Assembly: GCF_032116555.1 (NCBI RefSeq)
Contig: NZ_CP134951.1
Location: 124,001 to 188,000 of the forward strand
Reading direction: 5' to 3'
Length of the DNA: 64,000 nucleotides
From: Halobaculum sp. XH14
GTDB lineage: Archaea; Halobacteriota; Halobacteria; Halobacteriales; Haloferacaceae
The notes under the pieces were generated by a model that worked only from the letters and a program-made list of their open reading frames with translations, did no database searches and was not told the DNA's origin. Below, one piece after another: positions 52,398 through 54,388 of the stretch (position 1 is its first letter; every line of letters starts with the position of its first letter). The position numbers and the translations under genes are program-made.

Positions 52398-53306
52398 TCA
52401 GCCGAACGCGGTGATGACCCCGATTCCGACGACCACGCCGGTCGCGGCGACGCCGAGTTTCCAGGTCACGCGCTCCAGCCTGCTCGGCATGAACAGCGAC
52501 GAGAGCACGACGACGAACAGCGTGTTCGTGATGATGACCGGCGTGACGACGCTCACGGGTGCGATCTCCAGGGCGACGTAGTAGCCGACCAGAAACAGCG
52601 TGTTCGAGAGCCCCGCGAGCACGAACCAGCGCATGTCGGCCGAGCGGAACGTCGATCGGGCCGGGAGCCCTCCGCGGAACCTGAGATAGAGAACCAGTCC
52701 GAGGATGGCGGCGACGGTCTTGACGACCAGGCCGACCGGGGCCGGCGTCCCGGCGGCGAACCCGAACTTGGCGAAGACGGGTTCCATGCCGTACGCGACC
52801 GCCGCGGCGACGGGGATCAGGAGCCCGAGCGAGAGCTCCCGCCGCGAGAGGTCGTCCGGGTTCTCGTGGTTCGTCTCCCACGCGATGACGACGATGCCGA
52901 CGACGACGAGCGCGATGCCGACCGCGTGGATCGCGGACAGCGCCTCGTCGAGGAACACGACGCCGGCGACCGTCGAGACGAGCGCCCAGGCGGCGACGAT
53001 GGGTGCGGTCCTGCTCGCGCCGATCCGCTCGATGCTGGTGTAGCTCAGGATGCGGCCGAGCATCGTGCCGACCATCCCCGCCGCGGCGAAGGAGAGCCAC
53101 GAGACGGGGGTGAGTCCGTAGTCGGGGTAGTAGAGGACCGCGACCGAGGGCAGGAGGACGAGCACGTTCACCGCGATGACGACGACGACCGCGTCGGTCG
53201 CCCGGCCCTCGTCGGTCCCCTTCCGGACGAAGAGGTTCTGGGCGGCGATGCCGAGCGCCGCCACGAGCGAGACGAGCACGGCGACGAGCGTCGTTACGTC
53301 TACCAT
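52398..53306 (-). CDS. EamA/DMT family transporter
   Basis: 302 residues with ten membrane helices in two repeated halves (residues 3-140 and 150-300), the standard drug/metabolite transporter fold. The first-half element RIGASRTAPIVAAWALVSTVAGVVFLDEALS and the second-half EIAPVSVVTPVIITNTLFVVVLSSLFM are the matching EamA motifs. Substrate unknown. It is convergent with the ABC-2 pair. Confidence 0.9.
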   Translation of the reverse strand: MVDVTTLVAVLVSLVAALGIAAQNLFVRKGTDEGRATDAVVVVIAVNVLVLLPSVAVLYYPDYGLTPVSWLSFAAAGMVGTMLGRILSYTSIERIGASRTAPIVAAWALVSTVAGVVFLDEALSAIHAVGIALVVVGIVVIAWETNHENPDDLSRRELSLGLLIPVAAAVAYGMEPVFAKFGFAAGTPAPVGLVVKTVAAILGLVLYLRFRGGLPARSTFRSADMRWFVLAGLSNTLFLVGYYVALEIAPVSVVTPVIITNTLFVVVLSSLFMPSRLERVTWKLGVAATGVVVGIGVITAFG

Positions 53307-53412: not shown

Positions 53413-53908
53413 GTGACGACCGGCTCGAAAGCCCCCGACTGGCTACGCTCCCGCGGCACGCTCTGTGCTCCTCGCGCTCCCTCCGGTCGCGCTGTGGTGC
53501 TTGAGGCGCCGGGGTTCGCGTAGCCAGCCGACCCTTTCAGTCCCACCCACCGCACCTCGCCCTCCCCAGCCTCCTGCGCTCCTCGCCTTCGGCTGCGGTG
53601 CTCGTCCCTCGCACGAGCGGCCGCGCGCCACGTAGCCCGTCCAGCCGAGTGCGGTCGGCGCGCGTGTCGGCGAGCCCCGCAGGGGCGAGCAGACGCGCGC
53701 GAGGGGTGAGCGAGGAGCGGAGCGACGAGCGAATCGGCTGGGGAGGCGTGTGGCTGTGCGGTGCGGTCGTGGTGGGTGGGACTGAAAGGGGCCGGCGCTC
53801 TCGGGGACGGCGGACGACGCAAGCACCACAGCGCGAGCGGAGCGAGCGCGAGGAGCGCAGCGAGGCCCCCGACCCGAGAGCGCCGGGGGCTTTCGAGGCG
53901 TGCGTCAC
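53413..53908. repeat. Imperfect inverted repeat of about 500 bp, gene-free
   Basis: The two halves mirror each other about a centre near 53660. Perfect paired blocks, all centred within a few bases of that point, are: 53424-53437 with 53884-53897 (14 bases), 53487-53502 with 53821-53836 (16), 53532-53549 with 53773-53790 (18, containing TTTCAGTCCCACC), and 53561-53570 with 53737-53746 (10). GTGAC and GTCAC close the ends. Frames through it give arginine/serine-rich nonsense. The inner part is built of short GCGAG-type strings. It could be a miniature mobile element, a structured RNA or a chromosome-organising site. Confidence 0.7.
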
Positions 53909-53989: not shown

Positions 53990-54388
53990 TCACTCCCCGT
54001 GCGGAACCGAGAGCACCACGGCCTCCCCGGACACGACCCGCTCGTCGTCGACGAACGCGACCGTCTCCACGCGAACCCGGTCGCCGCCGACGTGTTCGAC
54101 CACCTCCACCTCGGCCCGGACCGTCGCCCCCGGCCGGACCGGGTTCTCGAACGAGAGGTCCTGCGAGAGGTAGATGATGTCGCCCGGGAGCGTCGCCAGC
54201 GCGGCGCTCACCACCCCGGCCGAAAACATCCCGTGGGCGATACGGCCGCCGAACGTCGTCTCCCCGGCGTACGCCTCGTCCAGATGAATGGGGTTGTGGT
54301 CGCCCGTGAGGTCGGCGTAGGCGTCGATGTCGGCGGCGGTGACCGCGCGCTCGGCGCTCGCCGCGTCGCCGACTGCTGCGATGGGCAT
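53990..54388 (-). CDS. MaoC-like (R)-specific enoyl-CoA hydratase
   Basis: 132 residues from the ATG at 54388. The hydratase-2 motif is YADLTGDHNPIHLDEAYA (D30 and H35 catalytic), with FGGRIAHGMFSAGVVSA completing the hot-dog active site. Such enzymes hydrate trans-2-enoyl-CoA to (R)-3-hydroxyacyl-CoA in fatty-acid or polyhydroxyalkanoate metabolism. It is divergent from the hydrolase and acyl-CoA ligase genes, sharing an 87-base promoter region. Confidence 0.9.
   Translation of the reverse strand: MPIAAVGDAASAERAVTAADIDAYADLTGDHNPIHLDEAYAGETTFGGRIAHGMFSAGVVSAALATLPGDIIYLSQDLSFENPVRPGATVRAEVEVVEHVGGDRVRVETVAFVDDERVVSGEAVVLSVPHGE

Follow-up and report, generated by a model that had tools for sequence, protein, structure and literature searches.

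The gene-free inverted repeat at positions 53413-53908 of the window, the 64,000-nt stretch of Halobaculum DNA analyzed here, is a tail-to-tail inverted pair of ~240-bp interspersed repeat units and not a unique palindrome. The preferred explanation, to which a probability of roughly 0.6 is assigned, sees in the pair two units, joined in inverted orientation, that belong to a non-coding family of dispersed multi-hairpin DNA repeats. This family ranges across the class Halobacteria, and on this reading it resembles REP/BIME (REPIN) or BOX repeats and is copied to new sites. Six properties of the family were observed directly: its copy number, its intergenic placement, its modular anatomy, the covariation of its stems, its class-wide spread and its presence/absence turnover between sister species. 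The inverted repeat is located on contig C3 of the 3.68-Mb, three-contig genome, and gene calls place it between two minus-strand genes, a transporter gene (52398-53306; the H. salinum plasmid carries the annotation 'GRP family sugar transporter') and a MaoC-type gene (53990-54388). All gene coordinates come from our own codon-usage caller and from no annotation, and orthologs were matched with our own scripts.

The long symmetric structure and the absence of genes proposed in an earlier note on this DNA were both borne out. An inverted-repeat search recovered the arm pairs 53413-53462 with 53859-53908 and 53452-53537 with 53786-53871, the longer arms being 70-73% identical, together with a perfect 20-nt pair (53532-53551 with 53771-53790). 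The centers of these pairs lie at ~53660.5-53661.5, in agreement with a proposed common center near 53660, and small indels account for the one-base shift. This symmetry is far above chance: the longest exact inverted repeat spans 20 nt, compared to a maximum of 16 in 60 shuffles, and the predicted fold of either strand is much more stable than those of dinucleotide-preserving shuffles (z of -11.3 and -9.5), none of 100 shuffles being as good. The GTGAC/GTCAC ends and the internal TTTCAGTCCCACC string were likewise found, whereas the outer 32-base segments, said to differ at three positions, differ at seven, about three of them within the first 25 bases. What does not hold is the view of the structure as a single palindrome, as it consists of two oppositely oriented units of one repeat family, each half with its own internal hairpin and the two stems differing in sequence.

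The repeat unit is composed of modules in a fixed order: motif E (TCGAAAGCCCCC), a ~95-nt hairpin termed HP1, motif M (CCCTTTCAGTCCCACCC), CTCCCCAGCC with a second hairpin (HP2), TCCCTCGCRCG, a third hairpin (HP3) and CGCGCGCC. Including its base, HP1 measures ~130 nt. The base is a 5-bp helix between GAAAG of E and CTTTC of M; above it come an internal loop rich in C, then the main stem (11-14 bp) and finally an inner stem that ends in a conserved tip, CTGCGCTCCTC...CTGCGGTGCTT. The insert between E and M is mostly 80-112 nt long. M is nearly invariant over 17 nt, far more conserved than the hairpin stems, and ends in the tail AGTCCCACCC. The segment from CTCCCCAGCC to the terminal CGCGCGCC, referred to as module B, starts 30-56 nt past M at 46 of 95 M sites; other right ends occur and HP1 is optional. 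Within the Halobaculum genome, E can be arranged in tandem at ~57-bp spacing, with up to three copies upstream of HP1 (L067, L109, L106, L086 and others), and some single E motifs occur without any M. Extra hairpins nested in HP1 or in the central part, e.g. TCGTTCGAAAATCGAAGA..., are common to copies (L086 2842-3005, L108 2807-3025) and give the impression that hairpins have been inserted at the tips of other hairpins. A G-quadruplex formed by the four G tracts of the M' strand was considered and not supported, as quadruplex-aware folding returned the same fold and energy, although such a structure may still form in high K+.

Both window copies follow this plan. The left unit (53425..53630, plus strand) reads E-HP1-M-CTCCCCAGCC/HP2-TCCCTCGCACG-HP3-CGCGCGCCA, a module order that matches other copies. 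Its E motif (53425..53436), recognized by genome count and sequence logo, forms the 5' base of HP1 (53437..53531), a 95-nt hairpin with the main stem GACTGGCTACGC/GCGTAGCCAGCC that is supported by folding and by covariation over 56 units. In the M motif that follows (53532..53548), CTTTC pairs with GAAAG of E and the remainder is the invariant tail. Module comparison places the start of module B, CTCCCCAGCC, at 53562..53571 and the end of the unit, TCCCTCGCACG...CGCGCGCC with a shortened HP3, at 53605..53629. The two tails meet in a junction (53631..53656; CGTAGC...GTGCGGTC) whose frame, GCGCGCCACGTRGC...TGCGGTCGGCGCG, is found at roughly a dozen loci. The right unit (53657..53896, minus strand) has the identical module order according to BLAST, module comparison and folding, with CTCCCCAGCC at 53736..53745, an exact M match at 53774..53790, HP1 with the stem GGCGCTCTCGGG/CCCGAGAGCGCC at 53791..53884, again seen in folds and covariation, and E at 53885..53896. 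On their outer sides, 5' of E, the units are bordered by weakly conserved sequence, namely GTGACGACCGGC (53413..53424, plus strand) and, at the opposite end, GTGACGCACGCC (53897-53908, minus strand); a logo of 155 E sites displays biased positions at -12, -7, -2 and -1 relative to E. The left M (53532-53548) may resemble the end of haloarchaeal CRISPR repeats, TTCAATCCCAC, a likeness that could be due to chance.

Copies of these modules are abundant. BLAST of the inverted repeat against its own genome yielded 117 pieces at about 45 loci, and BLAST combined with motif searches detected related motifs at about 80 dispersed loci. M is present in 62 exact copies and in 111 copies at two mismatches or fewer, with no hit for the reversed control in either search, and E (TCGAAAGCCCCCG) at one mismatch or fewer was found at 168 places compared to one for its reversed control. 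Placement was assessed for about 95 loci, using about 100 genome stretches: of the motifs that could be placed, called genes contain none of 96 M and 4 of 155 E, and copies adjoin gene starts and gene ends roughly in proportion to the available intergenic space. The window pair contains the only exact M motifs outside contig C1, every other locus being located on this main chromosome. The secondary replicons C2 and C3 make up about 10% of the genome and bear just the window copy.

The commonest form of the repeat is a single unit without a mirror half. The left unit (query 8-253) shares 85% identity with C1:48300-48552 and 68% with the right unit, while the whole composite (query 47-529) aligns at 77% with C1:2077118-2077626. 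Since the left unit is closer to a chromosomal copy than to its partner and the composite recurs elsewhere, the pair did not arise by recent local inversion but is a recurring composite of unlike units. Overall, copies share about 70-90% identity; being old and divergent, they give no sign of current activity.

Among the three guesses of the earlier note, a miniature mobile element comes closest, with ~80 dispersed loci and presence that varies between sisters in its favor, but the signature of a classical MITE was not found. Such an element would be a deletion derivative of an insertion sequence, bounded by terminal inverted repeats, flanked by target duplications and moved by the DDE transposase of that insertion sequence. 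A length of about 500 bp, inverted ends, missing coding capacity and multiple copies all fit this description. However, inverted ends exist in paired copies alone and are thus not obligatory, given that single units are commonest; E and M form the base of an internal hairpin instead of transposon ends; the 57-bp tandem E units extend the end variably; and no target duplication was seen, in flanks too diverged to read one. A classical MITE is considered very unlikely.

The stem sequences of the hairpins vary between copies while their pairing is kept. The longest run of pairs between true arms averages 9.2 in the own genome and 9.4 in other genomes, and drops to 5.4 and 5.1, respectively, when 3' arms are swapped between copies. 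Across 56 aligned units, 94.6% of cells pair, compared to 76.2% with shuffled 3' letters and 35-48% with slid arms. The same units contain 216 double changes, a number reached by none of 500 shuffles (68 in shuffles), and seven one-sided changes. Covariation extends to the basal E:M helix, in which GGAAG occurs with CTTCC five times and GAACG with CGTTC once. Stem mismatches comprise 16 G.T and 27 A.C among about 1454 Watson-Crick pairs, without an excess of wobble on either strand. A tRNA control from the same organisms likewise contained little G.U (2 of 112 pairs) and was of insufficient size, so wobble was not used to discriminate between RNA and DNA.

These compensatory changes are what a structured RNA, a further guess of the earlier note, would display, and they were indeed found to be conserved, but they fit DNA hairpins equally well. 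This alternative holds that the family is a class-wide structured ncRNA, with the C or the G strand transcribed, which acts as regulator, guide or processing signal and whose copies serve neighboring genes. It can draw on strong stem covariation combined with conserved unpaired parts (CCCCC, AGTCCCACCC) and on the conserved hairpin tip. Against it, no Rfam 15 covariance model matched at the gathering threshold or at E<=1, copies roughly follow the available intergenic space beside gene starts and ends, and dozens of copies with fast turnover are unusual for a trans-acting RNA; the missing strand preference in mismatches is a weak point in view of the G.U-poor tRNA control. On balance, an RNA is an unlikely explanation. 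In DNA, such stems are known to be created and mended when replication switches templates (PMC8794818), a process that would yield double changes without intermediates.

The family extends far beyond this genome: searches in the genome and in other haloarchaea, the check put forward in the earlier note, revealed many dispersed copies and a class-wide distribution. Of the 391 Halobacteria genomes sampled, 177 contain exact M, covering 60 of 86 genera; none of 204 genomes from other Halobacteriota does. Carriers among the matches listed include Haloarcula, Halorussus, Haloglomus, Haladaptatus, Halomicrococcus, Halomarina, Halohasta, Salinibaculum and Haloferax. A compact form, M - about 24 nt - M', exists in several genomes of Haloarcula and related organisms; in Haloarcula and Salinibaculum (L224, L233, L292 and similar loci), M and its reverse complement are spaced 40-45 bp from start to start and flanked by hairpin arms. 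At four Halorussus loci (L240, L257, L262, L269), tandem runs like GTGTCACCGGCCGTTTCCGGTGG follow M and replace module B. A search of a phage collection returned no match to the inverted repeat.

Comparison with the genus mates Halobaculum halophilum and H. salinum (plasmid records NZ_CP058530/NZ_CP058580 for the two), covering a systematic 800-kb sample of H. halophilum plus the window locus, indicates how individual copies fare. The intergenic gap that measures 683 bp in the window is smaller in both sisters, with 164 bp for H. halophilum and about 175-245 bp for H. salinum. The palindrome is missing at the matching site in both sister species, yet it is not absent without a trace, as an E-like remnant persists in both, fused to CTCCCCAGCC in H. 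halophilum, and the family is class-wide. M is retained at 3 of 13 comparable M-bearing sites in H. halophilum, and this low retention, together with the missing palindrome in two sisters, indicates that copies come and go. One matched site has HP1 in the sister copy and not in the own copy; a second site reads TCGAAAGTCCCACCC in the sister, as if HP1 had been excised at its base. Intergenic flanks are too diverged between species for a target duplication or an exact boundary to be read, and no insertion with clean ends was caught, so the turnover could reflect loss and not gain.

Distribution and turnover also bear on the third guess, a site for a chromosome-binding protein, for which the near-invariant 17-nt M would fit a recognition site and which the data neither support nor contradict. 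Here, the units would be binding or structuring sites for a chromosome-associated protein (nucleoid, SMC or gyrase-like), comparable to enterobacterial BIMEs, with selection keeping the copies. The conservation of M far above that of the stems, the intergenic position of E and M and the cruciform-prone DNA are in line with such a role. On the other hand, the family is patchy (exact M is missing from 214 of the 391 Halobacteria genomes), positions are not conserved between sister species and all but one locus are on the main replicon. As a primary explanation this is judged quite improbable, although patchiness, site turnover and the main-replicon bias leave room for what may be a secondary role.

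Known repeat systems provide several parallels for the preferred reading of a dispersed hairpin repeat. Like REP, BIME and REPIN sequences, the E/M family consists of extragenic, dispersed, high-copy units that form hairpins and bear a conserved tag next to the hairpin. It also shares singlets and inverted pairs with REPINs and REP dimers, as the composite aligns end to end with C1:2077118-2077626 and the junction recurs. REP pairs often combine unlike units into heterodimers (PMC3733652), and mobility as single-stranded DNA has been proposed for REPINs (PMC3116915). REP hairpins, however, span 20-40 bp and carry a GTAG or CGTC tag, in contrast to the ~240-bp E/M unit with its three hairpins and 17-nt tag. 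In addition, RAYT-associated REPs have a cognate RAYT/Y1 transposase (PF01797), usually flanked by units, whereas no PF01797 match was obtained in this genome with a search that was positive in 5 of 14 control genomes, including Haloferax volcanii. A survey of these proteins lists IS200-like as the sole subclass reported in Archaea (PMC6006769). The E/M family is thus not a member of the RAYT-associated REPs, since size and tag differ and Y1 is missing.

Streptococcal BOX elements (boxA-boxB(n)-boxC) are modular sequences of 67-637 bp between genes, with optional or tandem modules (PMC3049150). The E/M family resembles them in its ordered modules, its ~57-bp tandem E, its optional HP1 and a module B present at about half of the M sites. 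It differs in that BOX is unrelated in sequence and confined to one genus, while the E/M family is class-wide, contains near-perfect hairpin modules and is often duplicated tail to tail. ERIC of enterobacteria and Correia/NEMIS of Neisseria are likewise intergenic and palindromic, measure about 100-180 bp and turn over between strains; no sequence relation to the E/M unit is expected, and each is a single imperfect palindrome, compared to three hairpins and a long invariant tag in the E/M unit.

Within haloarchaea, the PATEs, MITEs and SMRs of Haloquadratum walsbyi are also dispersed and transposase-free, and PATEs contain palindromes (PMC3119063). The defining feature of MITEs and SMRs is their terminal inverted repeats; neither such a terminal structure nor a parent transposon was found for E/M units. 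A palindrome-associated element of the PATE kind, derived from IS605/IS200 and representing remnants of Y1-transposon ends, would agree with the hairpin-based anatomy, with the absence of a visible target duplication in the diverged flanks, with the haloarchaeal precedent (PMC3119063) and with the use of subterminal hairpins by Y1 enzymes (PMC6006769). Yet the genome encodes no detectable Y1 transposase by the search that succeeded in H. volcanii, and PATE palindromes are near-terminal and related to IS605-type ends (PMC3119063), while hairpins occur throughout the E/M unit. Such an origin is considered extremely unlikely.

For the dispersed, REP/BIME- or BOX-like family favored here, the following course can be proposed. 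Units would fold into hairpins when single-stranded, would be tolerated between genes and would be copied to new intergenic sites singly or as tail-to-tail pairs. Transposition may be the means of copying, with a single-stranded or looped-out form that is recognized by way of the hairpin built on E and M and its AGTCCCACCC tail. The enzyme would presumably act in trans and would not be a Y1 transposase encoded in this genome. Template switching at replication, along with exchange between copies, might keep the stems perfect, and deletion of HP1 could remove them. Speaking against this course, no mobilizing gene was found: the genome has no PF01797 match, and no transposase is among the genes flanked by units, which look like ordinary cellular genes. 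The near-invariant M and the conserved hairpin tip could also reflect a host function. More speculatively, the units may constitute a class-wide DNA-hairpin system with a near-invariant 17-nt recognition tag, copied by a so-far-unrecognized, non-Y1 host or plasmid enzyme or domesticated as a chromosome-organizing site; this extension is tentative and, if true, would give Archaea an equivalent of REP/BIME that relies on different enzymes.

Palindromic repeats dispersed through the genome are well documented in bacteria. Full-text searches, which covered few subscription journals, returned only unrelated papers for the motif strings and, among literature on haloarchaeal REP and interspersed repeats, nothing on the E/M family; judging from these searches, the REP/BIME-like family appears to be previously unreported, and no class-wide dispersed palindromic family was found reported in Archaea. 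E, M and the covarying hairpin base are exact handles for finding the copying enzyme, and the many copies with different yet paired stems offer a natural test of palindrome upkeep in GC-rich genomes. Finally, the E/M family explains many unannotated intergenic gaps of 300-700 bp in Halobacteria genomes.
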